The notes beneath the pieces were generated by a model. It saw nothing but the letters and a program-made list of their open reading frames with translations. It had not been told where the DNA came from and searched no databases. Made by a program: the position numbers and the translations under genes. Positions 12,357 to 29,286 of a DNA stretch of 61,432 nucleotides are shown piece by piece. Position 1 is the first letter of the stretch. Every line of letters begins with the position of its first letter. Source of the stretch: Eggerthellales bacterium (GTDB lineage: Bacteria; Actinomycetota; Coriobacteriia; Coriobacteriales; Eggerthellaceae); assembly GCA_029225085.1 (NCBI GenBank), contig JAQXVU010000041.1, positions 1 to 61,432 on the forward strand, given 5' to 3'.

Positions 12357-12428
12357 ATCACGTTGCTGCCGTAGATCACGTCGCGGCCGTGGATCACGTT
12401 GCTGCTGCTGATCATGTCGCGGCTGCGA
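12357..12428. repeat. Four 18-bp tandem repeats
   Basis: Units at 12357, 12375, 12393 and 12411 each begin ATCACGT or ATCATGT and continue with a TGCTG/CGCGG-type tail. Read in the frame shared by the MoaE-like gene and the following subtilase gene they would encode (D/N)HVAA(V/A) units. No stop interrupts that frame between the MoaE-like TAG and the subtilase. Confidence 0.8.
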
Positions 12429-12490
12429 GTTGCAGGGCGCGGCAACTGCAAGCCCAGGGTGCGCTGACGGGAAAGAAAGGGACGCCGACC

Positions 12491-15055
12491 ATGAAGGGGA
12501 ATCGTCGTAGGCCGGTAGCCGCTTTAGCGGTGGGAACTTTGTGCGCTTTCGTTCTGGCTCTTTTCTTGGGCGTTGCGGGGGTCCCCTTGCTGGCCCCTAA
12601 TGCTAGCGACCTGGGATCTTCCTCTGCGGCTGGCTTGGTGCAGGATTCTTCGGTAGAAGATGACACTGGGGCTAGCGATGGTGCCGCCTCCGATGACGCT
12701 GGGGTCGCCGATTCCGATGCTGCTGCCGCTAACTCCGGCAAGACCGATGGCTTTCAGGCCCACGACCAGGGCGTCGCTGCTGGCAAGTCCGACGATTTCG
12801 CCTCTTCCGTCTCTGAGAAGAGCCCTTCTAAGCGCAAGGTCGTGACGGGCGACGATGGCTCTCAGTATGCGGCTGGCGAGCTGCTTCTGACTTCGGCGGA
12901 AGGCGTCTCCGAGCAGGAGGCCATACAGAGCCTGAAGAACCAGGGCGTGCAGGTGACCGAGGTGCAGGCTCTGGCATCGGACGGTGGTGGAGCGTTGGTG
13001 CTGCAGGTGTCCTATAAGGGCAACGCTGATCCTGCTGACTTGTGCGAAGCTTTGGAAGCAGACGGCGTTTCCTTTGCTGCTGAGCCGGACTACCTGGCTA
13101 CCATCAATGAGGATGTGACCTGGGACGGTGAGGACGTCGATGCCGACGAGGGCGTCGATGGCGCGAGCGTCGCTGCCGATGACGCCTCTGGCAACGATGA
13201 CGAGGGCGCCGACGCGGAAAGCGACGAGGATTTTGTCGCGGCGGAAACCGCTGACGACGACACGGCCGAAGCCACTGACACTACTTCCACACCTTCTTAC
13301 ATCTGCGACGACCCCCATGCCAGCTCGTACGGATTCCTGGCAGCAACGGGAGCCATTGCAGCCTGGAACACCGTGCGCACGCGGGGTCAGGTGACGGTGG
13401 CGGTGATAGATACCGGTGCCGACTACTCCCATCCTGACCTGGTGAAGAACCTGGTAAGTTCAGCGTACGCCGTGAACGTGGTGGACGAGCTCTCCGACGG
13501 TTCCTACGTGTACGGTGTCTCCGCCGTGACTGACAGGGTGGGTCACGGAACCCATGTGGCGGGCATCGTGGCGGCAGAGGCTGATAATGCCGAGGGCGTG
13601 GCGGGTGTCTCCTACAACGCCAAGGTGCTGCCGGTGATGGCCTATGACGTTATCGACAAGGGCTTCTACGCCTCTGACTTGGTGCAGGCCCTCGATTATC
13701 TCGTTGCCTGCAAGAAGTCTGGCGTCCCCGAGCTGCAGAACATTCGCGTGGTGAACATGAGCTTGGGCATGTCTAACTGGGTGTACTCCCTGAAGGAGGC
13801 TATTGATCGTGCTCACGAGGCTGGCATCATGGTGTGCGCCGCTACGGGCAACGAGTATGCCGGCGTGGTGAACTATCCGGCGGCCTACGATAACGTGGTG
13901 GCTGTTGCCTCGGTTGGCGTGAACGGCGATGGAACCTACGGCTCTCGTTCCCGCTTCAGCAATTACGGCGGCACGGTAGACCTTGCCGCTCCTGGTGAGT
14001 CGGTGCTGTCTACCTGTCCTCTCGCCCTGACTTCTGAGGGCTATTTGCCTTATTACTACTCATCGGGAACCTCCATGGCGACGCCTATGGTTTCTGGGTC
14101 TGCGGCGCTGTTGCTGACGGCCCACCCAGAGCTTTCCGTCGATGAGGCTGAGTACTATCTGGAACTCGGTGCTGAGGACCTTGGCAAAGCAGGACGCGAC
14201 GATGAGACGGGCTGGGGCGGCGTGCGCATAGACCGATCCCTCGTGGCCGCTGATGCGGATCTCGCGTTGGAAGACGCCGTAATCTCACCCATATCTCAGC
14301 AGCGTTACACCGGCAAGAGCGTGTGCCCTAAGCTCACGGTAAAGATCGGCGACTTTACTCTACGAGAGGGCGTCGACTACAAGGCGACCTATTCTGACAA
14401 TGTGAAGCTGGGAACGGCTCAGGTGACGTTGGTGGGCAAGGGGAAGGTCAGCGGATCTGCGTCTGCCACCTTCACCATTCGCGCTTTGAAAGCGGGGGAG
14501 ACCTTCACCTATAACAGCTGCACCTACAAGGTCACTAAGACCGGTTCCTCCCCAGAGGTGCGACTGGAATCAGTGAGCTTTAAGGCTACCAGCGTGACGG
14601 TGCCGAAGACGGCGAAGCTGGGCACCATGTCCTACAAGGTCACGTCCCTGAAGGCCTCGGCTTTTGCGGGGCACAAGTACCTGAAGACGGTGAGCGTTTC
14701 CTACCTGCAGACCATTCCTTCCAAGGCGTTCTACAAATGCCCCAAGCTCGCTACGGTGACGCTGGGATCCGGGGTGAAGACCGTGGGGTCTTATGCCTTC
14801 TATAGGTGCCCGAAGTTGTCGAAGGTCTCGGTGGGCGCGGGTGTGAGGTCTATCGGGACGAAGGCCTTCTATGGTTGCGGCAAGCTTGCCACAGTGTACC
14901 TGAAGACGACTCATCTCTCTAGCTCGAAGGTGGGGAGCAAGGCCTTTGGCGGCACCTACGCAAAGGCGAAGGTGAAGTGCTACAAGAAGCTGTCCTCCTA
15001 CAAGAAGTGGCTACCGAAGAAGGGCTTCTCGAAGAAGGTTCGCTACTACAAGTAG
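12491..15055 (+). CDS. Secreted subtilisin-like serine protease with BspA-type repeats
   Basis: From the ATG at 12491 (GAAAGGGAC site) the protein has 854 residues. A signal peptide (LAVGTLCAFVLALFLGVAG) precedes an acidic Ser/Asp-rich stretch and a fervidolysin-like prodomain (YAAGELLLTSAEGVSEQEAI). The S8 catalytic triad is Asp307 (VAVIDTGADYSHPDL), His352 (GHGTHVAGI) and Ser528 (SGTSMATPMVSG), with the oxyanion Asn in AATGNEYAG. A beta-rich YDG-like domain (ISQQRYTGKSVCPKLTVK) follows, then BspA-type leucine-rich repeats (KAFYKCPKLATVTLGSG). The Lys-rich end KKVRYYK lacks a sortase signal; attachment is probably non-covalent. It probably degrades host or dietary protein outside the cell. 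Confidence 0.92.
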   Translation: MKGNRRRPVAALAVGTLCAFVLALFLGVAGVPLLAPNASDLGSSSAAGLVQDSSVEDDTGASDGAASDDAGVADSDAAAANSGKTDGFQAHDQGVAAGKSDDFASSVSEKSPSKRKVVTGDDGSQYAAGELLLTSAEGVSEQEAIQSLKNQGVQVTEVQALASDGGGALVLQVSYKGNADPADLCEALEADGVSFAAEPDYLATINEDVTWDGEDVDADEGVDGASVAADDASGNDDEGADAESDEDFVAAETADDDTAEATDTTSTPSYICDDPHASSYGFLAATGAIAAWNTVRTRGQVTVAVIDTGADYSHPDLVKNLVSSAYAVNVVDELSDGSYVYGVSAVTDRVGHGTHVAGIVAAEADNAEGVAGVSYNAKVLPVMAYDVIDKGFYASDLVQALDYLVACKKSGVPELQNIRVVNMSLGMSNWVYSLKEAIDRAHEAGIMVCAATGNEYAGVVNYPAAYDNVVAVASVGVNGDGTYGSRSRFSNYGGTVDLAAPGESVLSTCPLALTSEGYLPYYYSSGTSMATPMVSGSAALLLTAHPELSVDEAEYYLELGAEDLGKAGRDDETGWGGVRIDRSLVAADADLALEDAVISPISQQRYTGKSVCPKLTVKIGDFTLREGVDYKATYSDNVKLGTAQVTLVGKGKVSGSASATFTIRALKAGETFTYNSCTYKVTKTGSSPEVRLESVSFKATSVTVPKTAKLGTMSYKVTSLKASAFAGHKYLKTVSVSYLQTIPSKAFYKCPKLATVTLGSGVKTVGSYAFYRCPKLSKVSVGAGVRSIGTKAFYGCGKLATVYLKTTHLSSSKVGSKAFGGTYAKAKVKCYKKLSSYKKWLPKKGFSKKVRYYK

Positions 15056-15404: not shown

Positions 15405-16121
15405 ATGGGTTTCGTAACCGCCATATTGCTTTTAGTTGCAGCAGCTTACGGGCTGTTCTTCCTGTATGACTGGGTGACCATTCGCTTCGCTGGTGCCAAG
15501 TGGTCGGCTGTTCTTTTCGCCGTCGCCTTCGCGCTGAATGTGATTGCGGTGGGATTGCTCCTGTATCACGAGATTCCTGCGTGCTCTTGGGACGTCCCTT
15601 GCACCCTCTGCCTCTTTGCTGCTCTTATCTGCGGGGCTCTGCTTATGCGGTCCCTGTTCTTCTGCTTACCCAAGGGCACCTATTCCGACCCCGAGCAGGG
15701 GAGGAAGGTGTACCGACGGGGCATGTATGCCGCTTGTCGCCACCCTGGCGTGGGCTGGTACTGCCTGGTGTTCTGCTTTTTGGCTCTGGCCTTCCACACC
15801 CCTGAGGCCCTAGCTGCCTGTGCCTTGCTGATGATGGGCGATGTGGCCTACATGATCTTCCAGGACAACTACAGCTTCCCCCGCACCTTCTGCGACTACG
15901 ATGACTATCGGGCTACGACGCCCTTCTTCCTGCCTACCATGACGAGCTTGCGTCTGGCATTTGCCCCTGCTCCCGTTGTTGCGGGGGCGGCTACGACTGG
16001 TGCCTCTGTCGCGGCTGCGGCTGGTGCTTCCGTTGCGACTGCTGGTTCTGCAACGGCGGGCGCTTCGGCCGATGAGGCATCTGAGGCATATGCCGGGGAT
16101 GTTGCCGGAGGTGGGCGGTGA
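15405..16121 (+). CDS. Membrane protein resembling isoprenylcysteine/phospholipid methyltransferases
   Basis: This 238-residue protein has about five hydrophobic segments from the N terminus (GFVTAILLLVAAAYGLFFLY onward). The middle has YRRGMYAACRHPGVGWYCLVF, then a later FCDYDDYRATTPFFLP. The G-x-Y...RHP and Y-x-x-Y-x-x-T-P-F-x-x-P pattern is that of the ICMT/PEMT-type membrane methyltransferase fold, so an SAM-dependent role is plausible but not proven. A soluble Ala/Gly/Ser-rich tail (from about residue 185) is low complexity. Its TGA overlaps the GTG of the GH3 gene by 4 bp, so the two are translationally coupled. Confidence 0.6.
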   Translation: MGFVTAILLLVAAAYGLFFLYDWVTIRFAGAKWSAVLFAVAFALNVIAVGLLLYHEIPACSWDVPCTLCLFAALICGALLMRSLFFCLPKGTYSDPEQGRKVYRRGMYAACRHPGVGWYCLVFCFLALAFHTPEALAACALLMMGDVAYMIFQDNYSFPRTFCDYDDYRATTPFFLPTMTSLRLAFAPAPVVAGAATTGASVAAAAGASVATAGSATAGASADEASEAYAGDVAGGGR

Positions 16122-17770
16122 GTTTCCTGCGGTCATCTAAGGACTTCGATCTGTACGGGTATCAGGATGTGCTGAACCCTGAGGCTGCATGGGACGAGTA
16201 CTGCGGGTTCCTGACCCTCACCATCGACCAGTACCTGCACATTCAGCGCCGCCTGATGGAAGAGCAGATGCGCCTGTGGTGTCCTTCGGGCATCGGTCAG
16301 CGCATTCTGAAGGGAAAGAACCCTCAGACCATCGAGGAGTTCCTGCAGGAAGTTCCTCTGACTACCTATGAGGACTATGCTGACGTGCTTTTGGCTCGCA
16401 GGGAGGACCTGCTGCCTGCTCCTGCGGTTACTTGGGTCGAGACCACCTGGGAGGGCGGCAAGCGTCCTGTGAAGGTGGCCCCCTATACCCAGGGCATCCT
16501 CGATTCCTTCAAGCGCAATGGCAAGGGCATCATCATGCTTGCTAGTGCCGACGATTGGGCTCACTACGACATCGGCGATTGTGTGCTGTCGGGTCTTGCG
16601 CCGCTGCCCTTCCTTACCGGCGTCATGGGCATTATCCTCGACCAGGAGTTCGGCTTCCGCTTCATGCCCCCGCACAAGACCACCACGACCATGGGCTTCA
16701 CGGAGCGCATGAAGTACGGCTTCAAGATGGCCCTGAACTCCGGCATCGATTACTTCCTGGGCATGGGCTCTATCAGCTACTTCATGAGCAAGAAGCTGGT
16801 GGGCGCGGTGTCCGGTGGCTCCCATGGCTCTGGCGGCGGTTCTTCGAAGACCTCGCTGCGTGCGGCTGCCCGCGTTCTGAAGGCGCGCAAGAAGGCCAAG
16901 GACGAGGGACGCGAGATGCTGCCCAAGGACCTGTTCACTCTGCGCGGCTTCATCTGCGCTGGCACCGACAACGCTTGCTATAAAGATGATCTGGAAGAGC
17001 TGTGGGGTGTGCGCCCCATGGAGCTCTTCGCGGGTACCGAGTGCAGCCTCGTGGGCACTGAGACCTGGAACAGGAAGGACCTGTACTTCTTCCCAGACGC
17101 TTGCTTCTACGAGTTTTTGCCCTTCTCCTACGTGCGCCAGACCGACCGCTATCTTCCCACTGTCACCATCGATCAGGTGCAGCCGGGAGAGAAGTACGAG
17201 CTGGTCATCACCTCCTTGCGAGGTGGCGCTTTCGCTCGCTATCGCACCGGCGACGTGTATCGTTGCATGGGTATCGGTGACAGGGCGGATCATTCCACCT
17301 TGCCCCGCTTCCGCTATATAGACAGAGTGCCGGGCATCATCGATATCGCGGGCTTCACCCGCATTACGGAGAACTCCGTGAATGAGGTCATCTCCCTGTC
17401 TCACCTGCCCATTAAGGACTGGTGTGCCGCTAAGGAGTTCGACGCTCAGACCGGCCATCCCTTCCTGCATATGTATCTTGAGATGGAGCCTTCCTCCATG
17501 CAGAACCTGGCGGTCAGCGAGGAGATCATCCGCCATCATCTCGAGATCTACTTCAACTATCTCGATAACGACTATGAGAGCCTGAAGGCCATCCTCGAGA
17601 TGGAGCCCCTGCAGATCACCTTCTTGCAGCACGGTTCCTTCGCTGCCTATGAGGAGCTGGCTGGGGTGCCTATGCAACGCATCAGCCCCGAGCCCGACAC
17701 GGTGCGCCTGCTGCTTTCCGCTATGAAGTCCCGCGAGCCCCTGAGCTTTTGGAATGAGGTGATCGGGTAA
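16118..17770 (+). CDS. GH3 family acyl-adenylating enzyme
   Basis: This 550-residue soluble protein starts at a GTG overlapping the previous stop, with GGAGGTGG upstream. It resembles the GH3 auxin-responsive family, ANL-type enzymes that adenylate a carboxylic acid and may join it to an amino acid. Supporting features are the ATP-loop-like GGSHGSGGGSSKT, the acid-binding motif MELFAGTECSLVGTETW, the ITSLRGGAFARYRTGDVY strand-loop and the hinge/C-terminal ENSVNEVISLSHLPIKDWCAAKEF. Substrate is unknown; bacterial members are little studied. It sits between an ICMT-like membrane protein and a c-di-GMP-type signalling protein, with stop-start contacts on both sides. The genes should be made as one unit. 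Confidence 0.78.
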   Translation: MSFLRSSKDFDLYGYQDVLNPEAAWDEYCGFLTLTIDQYLHIQRRLMEEQMRLWCPSGIGQRILKGKNPQTIEEFLQEVPLTTYEDYADVLLARREDLLPAPAVTWVETTWEGGKRPVKVAPYTQGILDSFKRNGKGIIMLASADDWAHYDIGDCVLSGLAPLPFLTGVMGIILDQEFGFRFMPPHKTTTTMGFTERMKYGFKMALNSGIDYFLGMGSISYFMSKKLVGAVSGGSHGSGGGSSKTSLRAAARVLKARKKAKDEGREMLPKDLFTLRGFICAGTDNACYKDDLEELWGVRPMELFAGTECSLVGTETWNRKDLYFFPDACFYEFLPFSYVRQTDRYLPTVTIDQVQPGEKYELVITSLRGGAFARYRTGDVYRCMGIGDRADHSTLPRFRYIDRVPGIIDIAGFTRITENSVNEVISLSHLPIKDWCAAKEFDAQTGHPFLHMYLEMEPSSMQNLAVSEEIIRHHLEIYFNYLDNDYESLKAILEMEPLQITFLQHGSFAAYEELAGVPMQRISPEPDTVRLLLSAMKSREPLSFWNEVIG

Positions 17771-20292
17771 TGGCCAGCTTCGCGTTCATTCCCATTTGCG
17801 CACTGTTCCTGTTCCTGTTCGAGTTCTGCATCCTCATCGCAGCCAAGCGCAACCCCCTGGTGACCTGTTTCACCGTCATGCTGGTGTTCCTCATTCTGTG
17901 GTCGGCGGGCTCTGCCCTCATGCGCATTCAGTTCCTGGGGCTCATAGACCCTTGGTTTCACTTGTCCCTGATAGGCATTTGGGTTGCCTGCGTGGCCCTC
18001 GACGAGCTGCTGTGTCGCTTTCAGCGGAAGCATCTGGCCTGGTACGAGAAGGTCCTGGCTTTGGTGCTGGTGGTTATGCTCGTCGCTAATGTGGCAACGG
18101 GTTGGTTCCTGGCACCCCCTGCTCTGCAGGAGCTTTCTAGCGGCGTGGTCGCCTTCGTGTATGGCAATTTCACCATCGGCACCTATCTCATGTACGGCGT
18201 CTTCGCGGTGTTCTCCGGCTCTATCCTCATGCGGGTTTCCGGATGCGTGCGCTGTCGGAGCCTCACCTCCGCTCAGGCCCTGCCCATTTCCGTGGGCACC
18301 GTGTTCATGATTGTGGGCCAGATCCTTATCATGCTTCCTCCCTTTGCGGGAATCCCCCTAGATATCGTGGCGGGCATTGTCTTCGGCGCCTGCTGTTTCG
18401 TGAGCTTGTACAACAAGCATCTGTTCCCCCTGACTCTGGCCTTCTCTCGCCGCACCTATGCCTTGGTAACCTTGCTCATGGTGGTGCTGTTTAGCTCGTT
18501 CTTTGTAGATGACCTGGTGGCGTTCTTCTCCGGCCTGCCCAACCCGCTGGGATCGAACAGCGTTACCTGTGTGGTGCTGCTGCTGGTGGCCCTTGCCTTC
18601 AGCATCTACGGTCTGTGCAAGCGCTTGTCCGACAGCTTCTTCCTGAAGGACCAGACCAGCAGGACCGAGAGCCTGAAGGGCTTCCAGGAGGATATCTCTC
18701 GTTCGCTGAGCGTGGCTGACATCAGCGAGCTGTATTGTCATCAGGTGGCGCAGGACGTGCCCCGTGTGCGCAACGTGCGCATTTGTCTGAAGGACGCTGA
18801 GGGCAACATGGTGGTTGCGGGAAGCAGCATCCCCTTCGAGGCGGGCACGGTGCTCTTCGAGTCTCGCAGTGCCGTGGTCGATTGGCTAACGAACCATAAG
18901 GATGTGCTGACGCCGGCAGAGTTCAGCCGCAGTGTGGAATTCAGGAGCATGTGGGAGTCCGAGCAGGCCAAGCTCCGTCAGCTCGACCTGCATTGCGTGG
19001 TGCCGCTGATTGCCGACGATCAGCTCATCGGTCTTTCTACCATTGCGTTGAAGGACCCGCGTGGCAGCCTGACCATCAACGACATGGACCATCTTCTGGG
19101 CCTTTCTTCGGTGATGGCCGTTTCCGTGAGGAATTGCCAGCTGTATGAGTTGGCTGCTCAGGAAGCTCGCAGCGATGATCTGACTGGTCTTCTGAACCGC
19201 AAGCACTTCTACAAGGCCATGGATGAGCTCTCGGCCGACAATCCCAACAGGGTCATGAGCCTGGTGCTCATAAACATCGACGACTTCAAGCTCTATAACC
19301 AGCTGTATGGCGAGGCCATGGCGGATGACCTGCTGCGCCGCATCTCGCTGATCCTCACGCAGACTGCGGGGGAGGGCAACCTCATCGGACGCATCGGTGG
19401 TAAGGAATTCGCCATCCTCATGCCTGATCGGGACACCAGCGCCGCCCGTCGTCTGGCGGAGAATCTGCAGCAGCAGATCTTCCACATGAACAGGGATGGA
19501 AGCTACGACGAGGCTCTGAAAGTGGTCACCTGCTCGATCGGCATCTGCAGCATGCCCTTCGATGCCCACACCGTGAAGCAGCTGCTCGACAACGCTAACC
19601 TGGCGGTGTTCCAGGTGAAGCAGCGGGGCAAGAACGCCATCATGGTGTATTCCACGGGTATGGCCCAGGCAGGTCAGCAGGCGTCCGAGATCGACCACAA
19701 GAGCGTGTACTCTACCTATGCCGACACCATCTACGCGCTGACGGCGGCCATTGACGCCAAGGATCACTACACCTTCACTCATTCCAACAACGTGGCTTAT
19801 TACGCATCGGTGCTGGCCAGCGCCTACGGACTGAATGCCGAGACGGTGGAGATTGTCCGTGAGGCCGCCATGCTGCATGACATCGGCAAGATCTCTATCC
19901 CTGAGTTGATTCTGCAGAAGCCCGGTCGTCTGACCGCCGATGAGTACGAGATCATGAAGAAGCATCCGGAGAACGCTGTGGCCATCATTCGCCATCTCCC
20001 CAGCATGGATTACGTAATTCCTGCCGTGGTGGGGCACCATGAGCGCTGGGACGGTAAGGGCTACCCACGCAGGCTTGCGGGAGAGGACATCCCTCTGGCT
20101 GCTCGCATTCTGTGCATCGCCGACTGCTTCGACGCCATTACCACCAAGCGCTGCTACCAGGATCCTCGCGAGATGCAGAATGCCCTGCGCATCATCGAGG
20201 ACGGTGCGGGCACGCAGTTCGATCCTGAGCTGGCCCGTCTCTTCATCGAGAAGGCTAACGACGGCACCATCGAGCTGCAGGCCTCCCGCTAG
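17770..20292 (+). CDS. Membrane GGDEF (degenerate)/HD-GYP signalling protein
   Basis: This 840-residue protein has a seven- or eight-helix membrane region (residues 1-285), a GAF-like domain (about 300-460), a GGDEF domain (from DDLTGLLNRKHF, 468) and a C-terminal HD-GYP domain. The GGDEF signature is GGKEF (543-547), with Lys at the catalytic acidic position, so cyclase activity is probably lost. The HD-GYP side looks intact: HDIGK (703) and HHERWDGKGYP (GYP 764-766), so it probably hydrolyses c-di-GMP to GMP, or a related cyclic dinucleotide. Its ATG shares a base with the GH3 stop (TAATG). The membrane part suggests it senses an unknown, perhaps GH3-related, signal. Confidence 0.87.
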   Translation: MASFAFIPICALFLFLFEFCILIAAKRNPLVTCFTVMLVFLILWSAGSALMRIQFLGLIDPWFHLSLIGIWVACVALDELLCRFQRKHLAWYEKVLALVLVVMLVANVATGWFLAPPALQELSSGVVAFVYGNFTIGTYLMYGVFAVFSGSILMRVSGCVRCRSLTSAQALPISVGTVFMIVGQILIMLPPFAGIPLDIVAGIVFGACCFVSLYNKHLFPLTLAFSRRTYALVTLLMVVLFSSFFVDDLVAFFSGLPNPLGSNSVTCVVLLLVALAFSIYGLCKRLSDSFFLKDQTSRTESLKGFQEDISRSLSVADISELYCHQVAQDVPRVRNVRICLKDAEGNMVVAGSSIPFEAGTVLFESRSAVVDWLTNHKDVLTPAEFSRSVEFRSMWESEQAKLRQLDLHCVVPLIADDQLIGLSTIALKDPRGSLTINDMDHLLGLSSVMAVSVRNCQLYELAAQEARSDDLTGLLNRKHFYKAMDELSADNPNRVMSLVLINIDDFKLYNQLYGEAMADDLLRRISLILTQTAGEGNLIGRIGGKEFAILMPDRDTSAARRLAENLQQQIFHMNRDGSYDEALKVVTCSIGICSMPFDAHTVKQLLDNANLAVFQVKQRGKNAIMVYSTGMAQAGQQASEIDHKSVYSTYADTIYALTAAIDAKDHYTFTHSNNVAYYASVLASAYGLNAETVEIVREAAMLHDIGKISIPELILQKPGRLTADEYEIMKKHPENAVAIIRHLPSMDYVIPAVVGHHERWDGKGYPRRLAGEDIPLAARILCIADCFDAITTKRCYQDPREMQNALRIIEDGAGTQFDPELARLFIEKANDGTIELQASR

Positions 20293-20389: not shown

Positions 20390-20559
20390 TTGTTGCGGTT
20401 GCCCGTTTTGCTGCAGCTGCGTAGAACTTTTGCGTGCGATTTGCTGGCGGTTACGTTTCGGTGAGCTTTGGAAGAGGTTTCTCGGAAGTTTCCCCGAGCT
20501 TTGCGTAAAGGTCTGATGACCCCTTCCCTTCATCCTTGAAAGAGGAAGGGAGGTGCCCC

Positions 20560-21369
20560 ATGAAGCGAGGAAACATTACCGCCATGTTGGCTACCGGAGC
20601 CCTCTGCGCCGTGCTCATGTTCGCTTTCACCCAGTCTGTTCAGGGTCAGGCCGCCAAGGAGCGGTCCGAAGTCCTGGAGAAATATGGGGGAGAGCAGGTG
20701 GAGGTCTGCGTAGCGACTTCTGCAATTCCTGCGGGGGAGACACCTAACCTGGGCAACACCGCCATACAGCTCTGGGTTTCGGGTCTTCTTCCCGAGGATC
20801 CGGTCACCTCCCTTTCTCAGGTTTCAGACAAGACCCTCACCACCTCCGTTGTGAAAGGCGAAGTGCTGAGCTTTCGCCATTTCGACCAGGTTGCCTCCTC
20901 GGTAGAGGTGCCTGAGGGTTATTGCGCTATTTCTGTTCCTACGGAGGATGTCCGTGCAGTGGGCGGAGCCATCGGCGCAGGCATGCGGGTAGACGCCTAT
21001 CTCTCCGGTTCGTCGGAAATTTCCCTGTTGGCCGAGGATGTGCTGGTGCTTGGCACCAGTGTGACTGAGGAGGGAAATTCCCAAGCCGCATCGAAGATGT
21101 CCTGGGTTACGTTGGCGGTTCTGCCTGAAAAAGTGCCCGAGTTCATTTCCGCGGCGGATAAGGGAAGCCTGTATTTCGCCTTGCCTGGTCAGGAGCCTGA
21201 TGCCGCTGACGAGTCGACCGATGAGGCAAGCGATTCTTCTGCTGGCGATGGCAAGTCCTCCGATAACGGCGGCTACTCCTCTGATGCCTCCGGCAAGTCT
21301 TCCGATAAGACTGACGGTTCGTCGGATTCTTCCAGCAAGTCCTCCGAGGATGGAAAGGGAGGTCGCTGA
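20560..21369 (+). CDS. cpaB: Flp pilus assembly protein CpaB/RcpC-like (SAF domain)
   Basis: From the ATG at 20560 (GGAAGGGAGGTG site) this is 269 residues. An N-terminal membrane helix (ITAMLATGALCAVLMFAF) anchors the protein. A SAF-like region follows, with VEVCVATSAIPAGETPN and then VVKGEVLSFRHFD, the pattern of CpaB proteins that bridge the tad machine and its pilus. EGYCAISVPTEDVRAVGGAI and AGMRVDAYLS complete the family. The last 60 residues are a Ser/Asp/Gly-rich tail (SSDASGKSSD type), probably a cell-wall spacer. First gene of the tad operon; it ends in TGATG with cpaE. Confidence 0.85.
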   Translation: MKRGNITAMLATGALCAVLMFAFTQSVQGQAAKERSEVLEKYGGEQVEVCVATSAIPAGETPNLGNTAIQLWVSGLLPEDPVTSLSQVSDKTLTTSVVKGEVLSFRHFDQVASSVEVPEGYCAISVPTEDVRAVGGAIGAGMRVDAYLSGSSEISLLAEDVLVLGTSVTEEGNSQAASKMSWVTLAVLPEKVPEFISAADKGSLYFALPGQEPDAADESTDEASDSSAGDGKSSDNGGYSSDASGKSSDKTDGSSDSSSKSSEDGKGGR

Positions 21370-22730
21370 TGGCAACGGTCATGCTTTGCGCAGACGAGGT
21401 GAGCCTGCGCTCCCCTGAGCTTCTGGGCCTTGAAGGCTACGAGCTCGACGGTCTTCCCTGGCTTGCCTGCATGTGGGATGCGGGGCTCGCCAGGCGCGCC
21501 CTGCAGGGTCCCCATGACATTTCCGAGGTCTGGGTGGTCTCCTCTGATGAGGTGGAGCCCATTAACCTTGCGGCAGCATTGAAGAAGGATGCGCCCGATG
21601 TGCGCGTTGCCTTGGTTTGCCCTCAGGATTCCGGGTCGGTGCGCAGTCGTGCCGCTGCGGCGGGGATAGATGAGGTTCTCACCATGGCGGGATTCCTCGA
21701 TCGGTTCTCTTCCTTCGCAAAGGGACGGGGAAGCGTGGAGCCTGATGCCCCTATGAAGGCGGGCTCATCGTCTGGTGGTGAAGTGGCCATCCCCATGAAG
21801 GTGGGTTCTTCGTCTGGTAGCGAGGCGACCGCTCCCATTTGCGAGGAAACTGCACCTATTCGTCCTAGCTCTAAGCCTGCCGAGAAACGCGGGGATTTGG
21901 CGGTAAATGCGACTGGGGCAGCTACGGGGTCCCGCAGGGGCTACGTGCTCACCATCGTCAGCGGACGTGGCGGCGTGGGAAGAAGCACCCTTGCGGCACT
22001 GTTCTCCCTGGTTGCAGCGAGGTCGCTGCTCTCTGTGGCGGTGGTAGATGCCGATCTGCAGTTCGGAGATATGGACGCAATGCTCGGCCAGCATGATTGC
22101 CTCAGGTCCGATCAGTGCTTGCGCACCAGGGATTTCATTCCTCAGGGTGCAGTTTGCCCTGGGAAGGTCTTTCTGGTGGGCGCACCCCGACGCATGGAGC
22201 GGGGCGATCTGGTGAGGGGTCAGATTGCCGACATGGTGCGGGCGCTTCGTGAGCGCTTCCAGATTGTGGTGGTGAACACCGGGTCCTTTTGGGATGAGGC
22301 TCAGCTTGCGCTGGTGCAGGAGAGCTCCCATGTGCTGTTCCTCATGGATCAGCGCCCTTCGTCGGTGCAGATGGTGAAGGGCTGTATCGGATTGTGCAGC
22401 AGGTGCGGTGTGGCTACGTCGCCCTTCGTGTTCGCCATGAATCGCTGTCGAAAGGGCGAGGCTCTTTCGGGGGTCGATGCGTCTTGCGCCCTCGGTGGGG
22501 TAAAGGTCCTGGAGTTTCCCGATGGGGGACCTCAGGTAGAGGAAGCTTGCAGCGTGGGGAGGCCTCAGGCTCTCTTTGAGGAGGGAAATGCCCTCGTGCG
22601 ATCTGTAGCAGAGGTCTTTTCTTCACTGTATCCCCAGGTGGGAGAGCTTTCTAAGAATATCTTGGAAGAAATGGCTCCTCCCGCGAAGAAGGGCTTGTTC
22701 AGCCGGTTTAGGAGAGGGGGCGGATCGTAA
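21369..22730 (+). CDS. cpaE: TadZ/CpaE-like pilus localisation ATPase, degenerate Walker A
   Basis: This 453-residue protein has an N-terminal receiver-like domain (MLCADEVSL to DEVLTMAGFLDRF), then a MinD/ParA-like domain. CpaE/TadZ proteins place the tad machine at one pole or site. The deviant Walker A is SGRGGVGRST (residues 198-207): the lysines of KGGxGK(S/T) are Arg, so ATP hydrolysis may be weakened or absent. Walker B is VAVVDADLQFGDM. The linker between domains contains two copies of an APMKAGSSSG/IPMKVGSSSG repeat (about residues 124-155). The ATG overlaps the cpaB stop by one base and the TAA overlaps the cpaF ATG. Confidence 0.82.
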   Translation: MATVMLCADEVSLRSPELLGLEGYELDGLPWLACMWDAGLARRALQGPHDISEVWVVSSDEVEPINLAAALKKDAPDVRVALVCPQDSGSVRSRAAAAGIDEVLTMAGFLDRFSSFAKGRGSVEPDAPMKAGSSSGGEVAIPMKVGSSSGSEATAPICEETAPIRPSSKPAEKRGDLAVNATGAATGSRRGYVLTIVSGRGGVGRSTLAALFSLVAARSLLSVAVVDADLQFGDMDAMLGQHDCLRSDQCLRTRDFIPQGAVCPGKVFLVGAPRRMERGDLVRGQIADMVRALRERFQIVVVNTGSFWDEAQLALVQESSHVLFLMDQRPSSVQMVKGCIGLCSRCGVATSPFVFAMNRCRKGEALSGVDASCALGGVKVLEFPDGGPQVEEACSVGRPQALFEEGNALVRSVAEVFSSLYPQVGELSKNILEEMAPPAKKGLFSRFRRGGGS

Positions 22731-24076
22731 TGTCCCTTATCGATGTGGTGCTCAGGGCGAACAAGGACGAGGAGGTCCCCGAGGCGGCGAGCCTGGGGGT
22801 AGAGGAGCTGGCGGAATCTATGCGCGCGTACCTGCAGAGCCGCTTGCCCAGTTACCGCATGGCTCGGCTTATGCGGGAGAGCCCCCAACGTGCCCGAAAC
22901 GAGATTCGCAGTATCTGCTTGCAGGGATTTGCCGAGGATGCCTATGGGACGGTGAACCTTTCGGAGGCGCAATGCCAGCAGGCGATAGACACGCTGCTGA
23001 ACAGCATCTTCGGCTATGGGCTCCTCGAGCCTCTTTTGGAAGATGAGACCATTACCGAAATCATGGTGAACGGGACGGAGTCGCTTTTCTACGAGCGCGA
23101 TGGCGTCATTTGCCAAGCAGAGACGCGCTTTCGGGATGAGGAATCCGTGCGCGCACTTATAGACAGGATCATTGGGCCAGTTGGCAGGAGGGTCGATGAG
23201 TCTTCCCCTATGGTTGACGCTCGTCTGCCTCAGGGTTACCGCGTGAACGCCATCATCCCCCCGCTTTCTCTGACGGGGCCCGTGCTCACCATCAGGAAGT
23301 TTTCTCGGCGAGTCATTACGTTGCGGGAGATGCAGGAAGCGGGATCGGTAGAGGCTCCTGTGACTCAGCTGCTGAAGTGGGCCATTGCCGCGGAATGCAA
23401 TCTTCTGGTGTCGGGGGGAACCGGCACGGGAAAAACCACGCTGCTGAATGCCCTGTCCTGCGAGATAGACCATGCCCAGCGCATTGTCACCGTAGAGGAC
23501 TCCGCTGAACTGCGATTTTCCGAGCATCCTCATGTGGTTCGGTTGGAATCCCGCCCTCGTAATGCCGAGGGGCAAGGCGAGGTGACCATTCAGGATCTGG
23601 TGATCAACGCCCTGCGCATGCGCCCTGACCGCATCATCGTGGGCGAGTGCCGCGGTGAGGAGGCCAATGACATGTTGGTTGCTATGAACACTGGTCATAT
23701 GGGATCCCTCTCGACCCTTCATGCCAACTCTCCGCGAGATGCCGTCATCCGCCTTTCAACCATGGTGCGATTGGGAGCCGAGCTACCAGTAGACGTCATC
23801 GAGCGACAGGTGGGCTCGGCTATCGATCTCATCGTGCAGGTAGAGCGCTCGTCTTCAGGAGAGCGCTATGTGTGCCAGATATGCCAGGTGGGCCTCGCCG
23901 AAGACGGATGGACCCTCCTGCTCGACGAGGTGTACATCAGGGATTCCTTCCAGGCGAAGGGTGAGTGGAAGATGGCACCCCTGTTCGTGAAGCGACTTGC
24001 TGATAAGGACGTTGCGACTGAGGAGGAGGTGGAGGAATGGATATCGGAACTCTCCTTGCCTTCGCAGGATTCGTAG
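22730..24076 (+). CDS. tadA: TadA/CpaF secretion ATPase
   Basis: This 448-residue protein is the hexameric ATPase that drives Flp pilus assembly. Walker A is [10 protein letters not shown] (228-237), followed by the [11 protein letters not shown] Asp-box, the [19 protein letters not shown] Walker B/Asp region and the [15 protein letters not shown] His-box, all in the order of the VirB11/CpaF family. The N-terminal domain includes [15 protein letters not shown], the diagnostic CpaF sequence. The start is TAATG with the previous gene; the tadB start lies 40 bp inside its 3' end. Confidence 0.93.
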
Positions 24077-25008
24077 GAGCCTTCGTGTTCGGGTGCTTGC
24101 TGTTTCGTGTGGCGGATACCCGAGCTCGAAGAATTCTGCAGGTTGTTGGCGCTCAGGTGGCGGCGGGAAGCGATGCGGGCTTTTTTCAGAGGTCGTTAAG
24201 GACGGGAATTCCCCAGATCTCTCGCATCGCCGATGCTCTCAGGCGTTTCTCCCTGGTGTCTGGGTTCGCGGAGAACCTTGCCTGGTTTCTGCGTCGTCGA
24301 GGATACGAGACTGATCCTGCCAAAGCGCTCGAGTGTCTTATCGCATCCCTTGTCGCACTTTCTCTGATGCTTTCGGTGCTGTCGGGCTCGGTGGCGGTGG
24401 GGTTGCTGCTTTCCTGTGGTGCGCTTCTTGCCTTGCAAGGTGCTTTGCAGAGCAAGAGAGAGGAGGAGGCGCAGGCCATGCGTCAGGGGGTTCCTGATGT
24501 ACTGCATGCCATGGGCGCCTGCTTTGGGTCCGGCCTCTCGTTGTTGCAGACCTTTCAGCATCTCGCCCAGGAAGAGTCCGGCCCTTTGCGGGAGGCGTTC
24601 GGAAAGGCTGCAGGTGCTATGGAAGCGGGGGAGACCCCCGAGCAAGCCCTTGCCATCTTAAGGGACGAGGCGAAGGTGCCCGAGATCCTCTTCGTCAGCG
24701 TTGCCCTTGAGGTGCAGCACCGATCCGGCGGCAGTATGCAGCAGGTGCTCGAGGCGGCTCGGGAGTCGGTTGCAACTGAGCTGTCTCTCGAGCGGCAGCT
24801 TCGGGTGCAGACGGCTCAGGCAAGGCTTTCCGCACAGGTGGTGACAGTGATGCCCTTTCTGTTGGTGGGAGCCATCTCCCTGTTGTCCCCTGGGTTCCTC
24901 GGTCCTTTCTTCTCCTCAGTTACCGGGCTGTTGCTGCTCCTGGTTGCCTTGGGGATGCAGGTAGCGGGTGTCCTCATCGCCAGGCGCATGCTGAAGGTGC
25001 CCCTATGA
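24037..25008 (+). CDS. tadB: TadB-like inner-membrane platform protein
   Basis: This 323-residue protein has membrane helices at the N terminus ([18 protein letters not shown]), in the middle (IASLVALSLMLSVLSGSVAVGLLL) and two at the end. Between them is a T2SF/GspF-type cytoplasmic domain with VPDVLHAMGACFGSGLSLLQTFQHLAQ and LEVQHRSGGSMQQVLEAARES. This is the layout of TadB, which with TadC forms the platform turned by TadA. The ATG at 24037 has a GGAGGTGGAGG site inside tadA and overlaps it by 40 bp. Confidence 0.88.
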   Translation: MDIGTLLAFAGFVGAFVFGCLLFRVADTRARRILQVVGAQVAAGSDAGFFQRSLRTGIPQISRIADALRRFSLVSGFAENLAWFLRRRGYETDPAKALECLIASLVALSLMLSVLSGSVAVGLLLSCGALLALQGALQSKREEEAQAMRQGVPDVLHAMGACFGSGLSLLQTFQHLAQEESGPLREAFGKAAGAMEAGETPEQALAILRDEAKVPEILFVSVALEVQHRSGGSMQQVLEAARESVATELSLERQLRVQTAQARLSAQVVTVMPFLLVGAISLLSPGFLGPFFSSVTGLLLLLVALGMQVAGVLIARRMLKVPL

Positions 25009-25080
25009 CGATGCCAATAGTGCTGAGCTCGGGGAATTTCTCGCAGCGAAGCGGCTGCTTTCCTGGTAGGTGGTGATCTT

Positions 25081-26019
25081 ATGACGACGGTGCTGATGGT
25101 TTCCCTGCTGGTTTTCGGCTATCTGTTCGGTGCGTGTGCGTGCAGAGTGGCTTTGCAAGAGCTGGCCCTGCGTCAGAGAAAGCGGGCCTTGGGGTTCGTA
25201 TCTGCTTCTGACGGAGAAGTTGGTCCTAGGCTGCAGTCGACGGGTGTTGCTGCCGCCTTGGTCGGTTTCATGCGCCGAGAATCTGTTCGGGTGCATGAGG
25301 GCTCTTTGCCGGAGGGATTGGCGGGAAGGCTTCTGCTGTGGGGTGCTGGCGGGCTCAGCGAGCAGCTGGGGAAGGCTGGCGTATCCCAGGTGGTCTCGGT
25401 GGAAGGCGTGGTCCTTGCACGAGGGAAGCTTGCCCTCGCTCTTGCTGTGGCGGGGTTGTTGCTGGGGATCTTCTTTTCCTGGCAGCTCTCTCTGCTATTG
25501 GGCCTTTTGGGTTTTGCGGGTGCTTTCGGTTTGATCCCCTGGGCGCTTAAAGCAGAGATGCGCATGAGGAGGGTGAAGCTGGAGTCCGAGCTCTCGGAGA
25601 TGCTGGAGGTGGTGGTTCTGGGCTTGTCCGGTGGCCTGTCCTTCGAGCGATCCCTGCATCTGTATTGCCAACATTTCCCCACGTTCCTCTCCGAGGCTTT
25701 CGGCAATTGTCTTAAGCAATGGAAGTGGGGCATCACCACGCGGGATCAGTCCCTGAAGGATTTGGCCAGCCAGTTCGATTCACCCTTGCTCACCCGCGTT
25801 GTCGACAGCATGGTTCGATCCTTGCGCTTCGGCGTGCCAGCGGCAGGGGTTCTTAGTGAACTTGCGACGGAGGCCAGGGAAGCACGAAAGGCTTACCTGC
25901 AGGAACAGGTGGCTAAGGCGCCCGTGAAGATGATGGTGCCCGTTGGGGCTCTGATTCTTCCCGCCATGTTGCTGCTGGTCATGGGCCCGGTGCTCTTAGA
26001 GCTCATGAACGGTTTCTAA
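25081..26019 (+). CDS. tadC: TadC-like inner-membrane platform protein
   Basis: A 312-residue membrane protein with N-terminal (LMVSLLVFGYLFGACACRVA), central (ALAVAGLLLGIFFSWQLSLLLGL) and C-terminal (GALILPAMLLLVMGPVLLEL) spans. The T2SF domain has LEVVVLGLSGGLSFERSLHLYC and a long repeat of the same fold as TadB. It pairs with TadB as the platform. It begins 72 bp after tadB, with GGTGGTGATCTT before the ATG. Confidence 0.86.
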   Translation: MTTVLMVSLLVFGYLFGACACRVALQELALRQRKRALGFVSASDGEVGPRLQSTGVAAALVGFMRRESVRVHEGSLPEGLAGRLLLWGAGGLSEQLGKAGVSQVVSVEGVVLARGKLALALAVAGLLLGIFFSWQLSLLLGLLGFAGAFGLIPWALKAEMRMRRVKLESELSEMLEVVVLGLSGGLSFERSLHLYCQHFPTFLSEAFGNCLKQWKWGITTRDQSLKDLASQFDSPLLTRVVDSMVRSLRFGVPAAGVLSELATEAREARKAYLQEQVAKAPVKMMVPVGALILPAMLLLVMGPVLLELMNGF

Positions 26020-26035
26020 AGGAAAGGTACGTGAA

Positions 26036-26227
26036 ATGAAGTGTTTGCAACGCGTTTGGTGCAGAACCGCGTCTTGGTTGAAGACGGGAAGCCGCGGTCA
26101 GGGAACAACGGAATACGCCATCTTGGTGGGCGTTCTGGTGGTCATTGCCATTTTGGCTATCACGCTAATCGCTCCGAAGGTGCAGAGTCTGTGGGACGCC
26201 ATAGCGACGGGCATAAACGGTCTGTGA
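26036..26227 (+). CDS. flp: Flp-type major pilin
   Basis: A 63-residue prepilin. A basic leader ends SRG, then QGTTEYAILVGVLVVIAILA: cleavage after the Gly would leave Glu at +5 and Tyr at +6, the Flp signature. The hydrophobic stretch is followed by a very short tail, as in Flp pilins that form the tad fibre. It begins 16 bp after tadC with GGAAAGG upstream. It is the best candidate for the main subunit. Confidence 0.88.
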   Translation: MKCLQRVWCRTASWLKTGSRGQGTTEYAILVGVLVVIAILAITLIAPKVQSLWDAIATGINGL

Positions 26228-26502
26228 CCGATGACTTGGCCGATTGGCCTGATCCGCTGCTTCGAAGAGGTTCATTCTCCGTTTTGCGTCGTAAAACATT
26301 CGGCTATCTGAGGAGTGAAGCGGGACAGAGCACGGTGGAATACGCCGTGGTGCTCTTCGCTGTCTTGGGAATGCTGGTTGGTTTGGGCGTTCTCGGGAAC
26401 TTCTTGCAGGATGGGGGGCTGGTGCAGCATGCGCTGCAAAGCGCCTCTCATCATCTGACAGCGGTTTCGAAGGGGGCGCTTCTCGATGTGTTCCTGTATT
26501 AA
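26224..26502 (+). CDS. Second pilin-like protein of the tad operon
   Basis: A GTG start at 26224 overlapping the Flp stop (GTGA) gives 92 residues. After a 32-residue leader, EAGQSTVEYAVVLFAVLGMLVGLGVL contains a G-QSTVEY cleavage site (Glu +5, Tyr +6) and one hydrophobic helix. The rest is a short soluble tail. It is therefore a Flp-like or pseudopilin protein. The start rests mainly on coupling, as no clear ribosome site is seen; a slightly longer form beginning further upstream in this frame cannot be excluded. Confidence 0.7.
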   Translation: MTDDLADWPDPLLRRGSFSVLRRKTFGYLRSEAGQSTVEYAVVLFAVLGMLVGLGVLGNFLQDGGLVQHALQSASHHLTAVSKGALLDVFLY

Positions 26503-27154
26503 GGGGTCTTTCAGAACGCTACTTCGTGCCGAAGCCTCAGGAACCTGTGGGGCCGCAAAGGACTCAGGGGTTAGCGACGAGACAAGGTCTTTCCAGATGA
26601 ATACGGCTTGCTTTGGGAGCGGCTTCGCATCCGGGAGCGCGATTGATCTTTGGCGAAGGCGCGGTCAGTCGACGATCGAGGCGGCGGTGACTATTCCCGT
26701 CATCTTTCTGCTGCTGCTTCTGCTCTTGCAGCCGGGTATCTATCTGTATGACCGCGTGGTCATGATGGGTGCCGCGGCAGAGGGCTGTCGTCTGCTGGCC
26801 ACGTCCGAAGAGGTTTCTGGTGCCGGTGATGAGGGGTGCGAGCAGGCTATACGGAGGAGGTTGGGAGCCATCCCCTCCCAGGAGCTCTTCCATGTGTACG
26901 AGGGGGAGTGCAGCTATCAGATCGGTTTGGAAGGCAGCGAGGCCACGGAACGGGTGCAGGTGACCATCGAGAACAAGCTGCGTCCGCTTCCCATTCTCGA
27001 TATGGGGGCGACGTTACTTGGTCTCACCGATTCCGAAGGCTGCCTGACGTGCAAGGTACAGGTCTCTCTGTCCACTCAGGATGAATGGGTGGCTCAGGGA
27101 TCTTTGGGGCTGAATCCGTCGGGCTGGGCGAATGCGAGGGAGGGGACGTCATGA
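26486..27154 (+). CDS. tadE: TadE-like pseudopilin
   Basis: This 222-residue protein has an unusually long leader (about 58 residues) before RRRGQSTIEAAVTIPVIFLLLLLLLQ, a type IV-like hydrophobic helix with Glu at +5 and the TadE 'STIEAAV.IPV' pattern. The soluble domain after it includes paired Cys (GCEQ.../ECSYQ, GCLTCK) that could form disulfides outside. TadE is a minor pilin needed for Flp pili. The start at 26486 overlaps the previous gene by 17 bp; a later ATG at 26597 is possible but lacks a ribosome site. Confidence 0.8.
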   Translation: MCSCIKGSFRTLLRAEASGTCGAAKDSGVSDETRSFQMNTACFGSGFASGSAIDLWRRRGQSTIEAAVTIPVIFLLLLLLLQPGIYLYDRVVMMGAAAEGCRLLATSEEVSGAGDEGCEQAIRRRLGAIPSQELFHVYEGECSYQIGLEGSEATERVQVTIENKLRPLPILDMGATLLGLTDSEGCLTCKVQVSLSTQDEWVAQGSLGLNPSGWANAREGTS

Positions 27155-29286
27155 AAATGGGCACGCGATCGCTGCTCTTCGATGAGCGAGGCTTTTCGAC
27201 CATTGGCATGGCCCTTGCCATGATCATCACCCTGGCTCTGATATTTACCGCAGCGCAGGTGCAGCAGCTCTCGAGCGCATCTGCCGAGATTCAGGAGGTA
27301 GCTGACAGTGCGGCTTTGGCGGCTGAAAATGAGGTCGCCCAGTTCTATCTACTGGCTCAGATCTGCGATGCGGTTCTCCTGAGCCAGACCCTTGCCGTGA
27401 TGCTGACCTATGGGGCTGGCCTGGTCTTCCTTTGCGTGCCCTTTATGCAAGGCTTGGGGCAGGATTTGCTCGCCATTGGCGAGAGCCTTCTTTCGGCTCG
27501 GTCTGACTTTTACAAGGCGGCCACGCAGTCTCTGAACACCTTGCAAGACTCACTTCCGTTCTTGGCCATGGGGAAGGCCTCTTTGGTGATCGCTGCCAAT
27601 GCCAACCCTCACCTGGGAACGTCCTATGCGGGATTGGGCATTCTCCTGCCCTTGCAGGGTCAGGACATCGTTGCTTCAGACTTGCAAGGCTCTGAGGCGT
27701 TGGCGCAGGAGATAAGGCAAAGCGGAGACTCCATTGCCGACGAGGCGCGAAAGGTAGAAGAGCTGGCGGCCGAGGCTAACGAGGCGAAGGAGAGAGCCTT
27801 CATGGCCGATTGCGGCGCGAATCCTGAATACTGCATGTACCAGCGGGCTTCGACGCTTGCCGGCATGACGGGCTCGGAGAACCCCCTGTATTCCACGGTG
27901 GATACCTGGAGTTTCTCAGTGGCGCTTCAGCGTGCTAGGGCCTACTACGCGAAGCGCTATGAGCAGGAGGCTCCAGCGTCGGATGACGTGATGGAACAAG
28001 CGCGGTCCGTTCTCAGGAAGAATTTCTACGCCTTCGCGGTCGATCAGATGCAGGAGGGGTACGTGCACGAGGACGAAGCCAGGGGTTTCTCGGCGAACTT
28101 TCCTCTTATGCCGAAGAACACTGAGGAGATGAAGGGCACCGTTTTGTATTCCCAGGAGGTTTACCCGTTGTCGGAGCTTAACGGCAAGACGGTCATGCAT
28201 GCCTATGACGGATGTCCGGGAATAGGGACGATTGCCGGGAGAGGATCGTTGGCTGCAAGAGATCGCAAGAACATGCCGGAGTGCCCGTACTGCCATCTGA
28301 CCTCGGCGAGTATGGGAAAGGTCGCTTCTGCCTCTACTGCCATAGAGAACGGTTTCGAGTACCACTACAACATCGTTGCCGAGGCGGCGAAGGAGTACCA
28401 GGAGAAGCAAGGCGACTATCAGCAGGAGGCTTCGGGGGTTAAACAGACGGTTTCCGATCTCATGGCATCCTTGCAGTCGCTGGTTGCCCAGGGAGCCTCT
28501 CAGCGTATTTCCGTGTCGCCTCCCGGGCGAGTGGGGGCCTTGGCCCTGGTGTTCAGCACCGCGGAGGTTTCGTCGGAGGGCGGCTATTCCAACGGTTTCG
28601 TAAAGAGCTCGGGAACGCTGGGGACTCGGCTTGCCATCTCGGCGGCAACTTTGGCGCCTGATTCATCTGAAGGATCAAAGACGGTTATCACCTCCTTGCT
28701 CGATGGTTTGCGAGACAGGGTGCCTTGGTTGTCCTCTACGCAGGGGTCGACGCTTCTGCAGATTTGGTCGGCGGCTCTTGGCAGCTATGGGTCAGGGCAG
28801 GAAGCCCTGGTGGAAGGAGTGCGGCAGGTCTGCTCGAAGAGCAAGCTCCTCAGCGCCAGCGGCCTTGGGCCGTGGGCTGCGGACAAACTGCAATCTGCCA
28901 TTGAAGCCCTGGGTTTGCAGGCGGCGGATTTGTCGGCTGTGCGACCGGTGGTGGTGAACAGCTATCACGTCCTTGCCGCCGATGGCTCAGCCTTCTCCTC
29001 CCAGGTGCTCTCGGCGCGCTCATGGGCCCTGTCTTACGGAGAGGGGACCTTGCTCTCTACGGCTTTGTCTTACCTGACGTATCAGGGAGTTTCGCAGCTG
29101 GCTTCTCTAGCGGGGGATTTTGCGGTGGCCACCATAGGCTTCACGGGCTCTCCGTCGGGTGATCAGGTGCTGTCGGTGGTTCTGCCTTCCTTCATACGGG
29201 GCATGTCGGCCGATGCGGCGAATTCATTAGTTGCGCGTTTGGGATCTTTGTTCCCTACGTTGTCGGGGGTGAGGCAATGGGAGTGA
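27151..29286 (+). CDS. Large TadG-like pseudopilin/secreted protein
   Basis: From the ATG at 27151, overlapping the tadE stop by 4 bp (ATGA) behind GGGAGGGG, the protein has 711 residues. The N terminus FDERGFSTIGMALAMIITLALIF is prepilin-like but has Gly, not Glu, at +5, then EVADSAALAAENEVA, a TadG/Flp-assembly marker. The remainder is a long extracellular domain with helical Glu/Ala-rich stretches and two CxxC pairs (MPECPYCHL near residue 380). Its size is well above ordinary TadG proteins. It could be a tip adhesin or an assembly factor. It overlaps the next gene by 10 bp. Confidence 0.7.
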   Translation: MKMGTRSLLFDERGFSTIGMALAMIITLALIFTAAQVQQLSSASAEIQEVADSAALAAENEVAQFYLLAQICDAVLLSQTLAVMLTYGAGLVFLCVPFMQGLGQDLLAIGESLLSARSDFYKAATQSLNTLQDSLPFLAMGKASLVIAANANPHLGTSYAGLGILLPLQGQDIVASDLQGSEALAQEIRQSGDSIADEARKVEELAAEANEAKERAFMADCGANPEYCMYQRASTLAGMTGSENPLYSTVDTWSFSVALQRARAYYAKRYEQEAPASDDVMEQARSVLRKNFYAFAVDQMQEGYVHEDEARGFSANFPLMPKNTEEMKGTVLYSQEVYPLSELNGKTVMHAYDGCPGIGTIAGRGSLAARDRKNMPECPYCHLTSASMGKVASASTAIENGFEYHYNIVAEAAKEYQEKQGDYQQEASGVKQTVSDLMASLQSLVAQGASQRISVSPPGRVGALALVFSTAEVSSEGGYSNGFVKSSGTLGTRLAISAATLAPDSSEGSKTVITSLLDGLRDRVPWLSSTQGSTLLQIWSAALGSYGSGQEALVEGVRQVCSKSKLLSASGLGPWAADKLQSAIEALGLQAADLSAVRPVVVNSYHVLAADGSAFSSQVLSARSWALSYGEGTLLSTALSYLTYQGVSQLASLAGDFAVATIGFTGSPSGDQVLSVVLPSFIRGMSADAANSLVARLGSLFPTLSGVRQWE

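Follow-up and report, generated by a model that had tools for sequence, protein, structure and literature searches.

A conserved three-gene cassette of an ICMT-like membrane protein, a GH3-fold protein and an HD-GYP receptor in Eggerthellales and Clostridia

RpfF belongs to the crotonase-type enzymes, and RpfR has the domain composition PAS-GGDEF-EAL; RpfC/RpfG is a two-component phosphorelay with a separate sensor and HD-GYP regulator. In the RpfF-RpfR (BDSF) system, the gene for a lipid-signal enzyme lies beside that for its cognate c-di-GMP-hydrolyzing receptor (PMC4698668, PMC8846402), and the BDSF fatty acid binds RpfR and raises its phosphodiesterase activity (PMC8846402). OlsH is a characterized bacterial GH3 enzyme that makes N-acyl-ornithine, and its operon also contains a lipid methyltransferase (PMC12493201). 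Bacterial GH3 enzymes are barely understood, and none in the literature searched has been linked to second-messenger signaling; the ligands of c-di-GMP receptors in gut bacteria are mostly unknown.

The locus described here lies in a stretch of 61,432 nucleotides from an Eggerthellales bacterium (contig JAQXVU010000041.1 of assembly GCA_029225085.1; hereafter, “the window”). It encodes an ICMT-like protein (ICMT/PEMT/steroid-5-reductase superfamily), a GH3-fold protein and a 7TM-GAF-GGDEF-HD-GYP protein (“the receptor”). The arrangement resembles that of RpfF-RpfR; however, the Pfam domains differ, and RpfF-RpfR would be the closest working analogue by function only, assembled from unrelated parts. 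The RpfC/RpfG DSF system, in which a fatty-acid signal is sensed at the membrane and the output is of the HD-GYP type, is also comparable, but the cassette has one fused receptor, and its ligand is putative. The OlsH-OlsG-OlsI operon of Singulisphaera likewise combines a bacterial GH3 protein with a methyltransferase and acts on fatty acids, but it has a canonical motif 1 (TSGTTQG) and the unrelated OlsI acyltransferase and is without a c-di-GMP receptor (PMC12493201). In the open-access full-text literature (where absence is not proof), no paper was found that ties GH3 acyl-acid enzymes to GGDEF/HD-GYP proteins, and GH3 goes unmentioned in a published census of c-di-GMP inputs. The initial annotation's statement that no system of this composition had been described thus held in that literature; the families themselves are known, and within the scope of these searches both their conserved association and the loop of the GH3 protein are new.

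Gene order and distribution

The host genome (1.93 Mb, with the window as its contig 41) is rated 100% complete and 0.49% contaminated. All three genes are on the forward strand: gene 1 (15405..16121) encodes the ICMT-like membrane protein (238 aa, several TM helices), gene 2 (16118..17770, GTG start) the GH3-fold protein (550 aa) and gene 3 (17770..20292) the receptor (840 aa). They touch at both junctions, as initially annotated, through GTGA (16118-16121) and TAATG (17768-17772). The cassette is set off from its neighbors, a subtilase/LRR gene 349 bp upstream and a Tad/Flp pilus operon 243 bp downstream. Two long ORFs on the antisense strand, of 514 and 475 aa, were disregarded and are attributed to GC-rich codon usage. 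Promoter and terminator scans did no better than shuffles, and no c-di-GMP riboswitch was found in the window, where a tRNA was the sole match.

The upstream neighbor (12389-15055) is a subtilase with BspA-type LRR_5 repeats, likely a secreted or surface protease. The downstream operon (20536-29286) comprises RcpC/CpaB, ParA-like, T2SSE ATPase and further genes; a link between it and the cassette was rejected, the adjacency being restricted to the window and absent at relatives. Plasmid carriage was also rejected (no match), as was a role in anti-phage defense, for which PADLOC gave nothing beyond generic HD-domain similarity to Cas3.

A peptide scan from the window against 84,980 species genomes returned four relatives, each of which carries these three genes; further loci were obtained by profile searches of selected genome samples. 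The GH3 clade was present in 3/138 genomes of the window's own family, 8/394 of the order of Fournierella, 9/392 of the order of Merdimonas and 10/299 in a sample of the phylum to which the latter order belongs; among 198 Actinomycetota genomes, only the window had it. Cassette GH3 proteins scored >400 bits (full-length genes), versus <65 bits for ordinary bacterial GH3 proteins. The order ICMT-like, GH3, receptor occurred at all 31 distinct loci of the clade (Eggerthellales, two Clostridia orders and others) and is therefore not unique to this genome. These include two loci split across contigs (L079/L080 and L146/L147) and two that break off within the receptor gene (L006, L087), which are consistent with the order. 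Junctions ranged from -28 to +51 bp (22 loci measured) and were usually touching, and the surroundings were otherwise unrelated between loci. Clustering of flanking ORFs for a fourth core gene found only DegV (5 loci) and nothing universal. Strong ICMT-like matches (at least 237 bits; next best 41) fell in exactly the same 9/392 genomes of the Merdimonas order as the GH3 matches. This 9/9 co-occurrence, the invariant order and the congruent trees described below support the proposal in the initial annotation that the three genes form one system.

Folds and catalytic motifs of the three proteins

The three products had been called from the letters an ICMT-like membrane protein, a GH3 enzyme and a membrane GGDEF/HD-GYP protein with a c-di-GMP output; the profile and structure comparisons that follow agree with each of these assignments. 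For gene 1, the sole Pfam match was PEMT (E 0.41), far below the curated cut-off. Among 21 relatives, the PEMT model was touched by 8 (best E 0.0034) and the ICMT model by 7 (best E 0.0016), all sub-threshold, and searching PDB sequences with this profile family yielded only chance matches to rhodopsins. The predicted model (pLDDT 85) matched Ma-ICMT (4a2n) with Z 9.0 over 144 aligned residues, followed by the insect (Tribolium) ICMT (5vg9, Z 8.9) and by sterol C14-reductase and steroid 5-alpha-reductases (4quv, 7c83, 7bw1; Z 8.2). These top five matches all belong to the ICMT/sterol-reductase superfamily and rank above unrelated ones, although a Z of about 9 is modest for a helical protein and plain Foldseek was weak (best E 0.31). 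Gene 1 thus has a predicted ICMT-like fold, with a chemistry that may be that of a methyltransferase or of a reductase.

The SAM-binding motifs of ICMT are RHPxY and EE. Across 30 gene 1 sequences, RHPG, FP, Y..Y, P...P and one Ser are invariant. At the corresponding positions, these sequences have an invariant RHP followed by G, and (Q/E)(D/E) in place of EE. The membrane fold, RHP and a C-terminal Y..Y....P signature are common to gene 1 and the Ma- and Tribolium ICMTs; however, gene 1 is 13-15% identical to them and has RHPG for RHPxY and QD for EE, and SAM binding is putative. The Ala/Gly/Thr-rich C-terminal tail of gene 1 (15963-16118; about aa 187-238) is unique to the window, with pLDDT <50.

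For gene 2, Pfam recognized GH3_M (7.6e-13), with GH3_C (0.0046) and GH3-N (0.022) under the cut-off. A PF03321 query of the window's own genome missed the gene because of its divergent N-terminal domain. The model (pLDDT 82) matched JAR1/GH3.11 (4epl) with Z 28.1 and an rmsd of 4.1 over 472 residues, a match spanning the full length, and all top structures were GH3 proteins. The likeness to these plant acyl-acid amido synthetases thus covers the fold over about 470 residues and motifs 2 and 3; in contrast, identity is about 16%, motif 1 of the cassette is altered, and the plant enzyme is without an operon membrane partner or receptor. One cassette GH3 protein matched the OlsH model weakly (E 0.0046).

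Motif 1 is remodeled. Gene 2 has TTWEGG (aa 109-114; 16442..16459, forward strand, computed from the gene start at 16118) rather than the GH3-type [ST]SG[TS][TS]xG. In the model, TTWEGG occupies the position expected of motif 1, a loop flanked by strands 103-110 and 118-124. Residues T109-E112 (TTWE) are identical in every derived-clade GH3 protein with the region present; relative to motif 1, a hydroxyl is retained (Thr), Gly is replaced by Trp, and Glu is added. Motif 2 (GTE, 306-308; TE invariant, usually GTE) persists, and motif 3 (RYRxGD, 374-379) is invariant. Mutation of the motif-1 serine of OlsH (S115A) abolished acyl-ornithine synthesis (PMC12493201). Because motif 1 is altered where that serine is essential, adenylation by gene 2 is uncertain, and a GH3 protein with the TTWE loop may have lost this activity.

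For gene 3, the Pfam matches were HD_5 (1.7e-41) and GGDEF (1.4e-33). Among 19 relatives, the N-terminal 7TM region was recognized as HisKA_7TM in 13 and the GAF domain in about half. The window and nearly all relatives have unaltered HD-GYP signatures (HDxGK and HHExxDGxGYP); in gene 3, the catalytic region runs from HDIGK (aa 703-707) to HHERWDGKGYP (aa 756-766), at 19876..20067 on the forward strand (from the gene start at 17770). The cyclase site is degenerate in the window and its own clade: the window has GGKEF (aa 543-547; 19396..19410, forward strand, computed from the same start) and NQ instead of ND. From the established roles of GGDEF residues, cyclase activity is not expected of gene 3; c-di-GMP hydrolysis is the predicted output.

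The window's genome has six other GGDEF matches, which makes c-di-GMP turnover plausible in the host; no PilZ effector was found in it. Genes of c-di-GMP metabolism (GGDEF, GGDEF-EAL-like or HD-GYP) adjoin the cassette upstream at L087 and at L139:5751-10221 and L140:7945-9099.

Shared inheritance and sequence of changes

Trees were built from 29 loci. The GH3 and receptor trees have 23/26 splits in common, and the ICMT tree shares 15-17/26 splits with each of them. Strongly supported splits did not conflict, and shuffled labels shared at most 2-3 splits. The three genes are thus inherited together. In the GH3 and receptor trees, the copies from Eggerthellales (window, L006, L072) group, with support 100, as sister to those of Fournierella and of a Clostridia MAG; the three genes therefore passed between phyla together. 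The cassette is horizontally mobile, and the crossing could have occurred in either direction. Each of the three genes is under purifying selection, with dN/dS values of 0.07-0.17 (dS partly saturated).

The cassettes differ in motif 1 and the cyclase site. In the early-branching L142-L145, both ancestral sites are kept: the GH3 protein has TSG[KR] and the receptor GGDEF/ND is intact. The L145 receptor has HDIGL in its HD-GYP site, and that of L144 (7494-9464) lacks the HD-GYP domain and consists of an N-terminal 7TM-like region, a GAF domain and an intact GGDEF domain; therefore, the output can be that of a cyclase. At the split loci, TTWEG in GH3 accompanies GGEEF/ND in the receptor, so that the cyclase site is intact in L079 and L142-L146. 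The remaining cassettes combine TTWE[GS]G with a Lys-containing cyclase signature (GKEF; GKIF/GKVF in three) and NQ/NE. The loop was thus remodeled first and the cyclase decayed second, each apparently once; the changes belong to one lineage and are not independent replicates. The matched changes amount to a built-in evolutionary experiment.

Candidate function and alternatives

A DegV gene lies directly upstream of the cassette on the same strand, leading the operon, at L072, L075 and L076, and adjoins it at L009; the fifth locus has a distant DegV gene. The genomes have 4-8 DegV genes each, and the chance of one occupying a given neighbor slot was roughly estimated at ~0.3%; L075 and L076, being sisters, may count as a single event. 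Fatty acids are bound by proteins of the DegV/FakB type (PMC10138225). Together with the OlsH precedent, the DegV neighbors point to a fatty acyl group, which by analogy is probably the GH3 substrate.

The preferred reading, which we hold tentatively and at slightly short of an even chance, is that a carboxylate-conjugating or -modifying pair is coupled to a cognate c-di-GMP receptor in one mobile signaling cassette. The GH3 protein would handle a membrane-derived carboxylate, most likely fatty acyl, and join it to an amino compound, or would release or recognize such a conjugate. The ICMT-like protein would modify the lipid, plausibly by methylating a carboxyl or amine group. The 7TM-GAF protein would sense the lipid or conjugate, its putative ligand, whereupon the HD-GYP domain would alter c-di-GMP hydrolysis, in a direction that is conjectural. 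Counting against conjugation is the TTWE motif 1; against the methylation step, the sub-threshold ICMT-like profile matches and the steroid reductases that match the gene 1 structure almost as well; and against the lipid clue, the minority of loci with DegV and the commonness of DegV genes. The failure to find a PilZ effector in the genome also weighs against the reading. If true, the preferred reading would link c-di-GMP to the fold of a hormone conjugase and to that of a membrane methyltransferase, and would make the cassette a candidate for quorum or host-lipid sensing in gut bacteria.

The foremost rival, though rather unlikely, is a GH3 pseudoenzyme: the protein would bind a nucleotide or carboxylate and act, together with the ICMT-like protein, as a component of the receptor that gates HD-GYP, and the cassette would make no signal. 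The universal TTWE of the derived members with the region present, with Trp for Gly and an added Glu where phosphates sit, would suit such a binding role, as would the invariance of motifs 2 and 3. The loop change also arose in the lineage whose receptor cyclase later decayed to GKEF, as if the two had shifted roles jointly. However, the whole GH3 protein is under strong purifying selection, with K119, T307, E308, R374, D379 and K439 invariant, as would suit an active site; TSG is kept in early-branching cassettes, and the Thr of TTWE retains the hydroxyl of the essential OlsH serine.

A membrane-lipid pathway appears less probable still. The GH3 and ICMT-like proteins would make a modified amino lipid in the manner of OlsH/OlsG, with the receptor merely reporting the state of the membrane to c-di-GMP; the OlsH operon is a precedent (PMC12493201), and the DegV neighbors are in keeping with it. 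Nevertheless, the cassette is without an acyltransferase such as OlsI, and a receptor is present in every cassette, even at L144, where the GGDEF domain alone is left.

The phosphate loop for ATP could be dispensable if the derived GH3 protein used an acyl donor that is already activated, such as the acyl-phosphate that a FakA/DegV pair would supply; this we consider improbable. FakB-bound fatty acid is converted to acyl-phosphate (PMC9136124), and DegV adjoins TTW-type cassettes only (L009, L072, L075, L076). However, the loci are few, two of them are sisters, and only four TSG-type cassettes can be compared; the nucleotide motifs 2 and 3 are also retained. In the most novel version, which would make the cassette a new class of bacterial lipid-signaling system, the TTWE-loop protein of Clostridia and Eggerthellales would take such a donor (for example DegV-bound acyl-phosphate) rather than ATP, and the resulting amide or ester would be methylated by the ICMT-like protein and read by the 7TM HD-GYP receptor; we regard this sequence as improbable. 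Finally, adjacency of three unrelated genes by chance has nothing in its favor beyond the varied flanking genes, and it is ruled out, with negligible probability, by the order kept at 31/31 loci across phyla, the congruent trees and the 9/9 co-occurrence.

At L149:4416-9169, a complete cassette ends a 35.8-kb IMG/VR viral contig, right after tail- and lysin-like genes, where it may be either phage cargo or flanking bacterial DNA. Another member is found in a named strain, Fournierella massiliensis An912.
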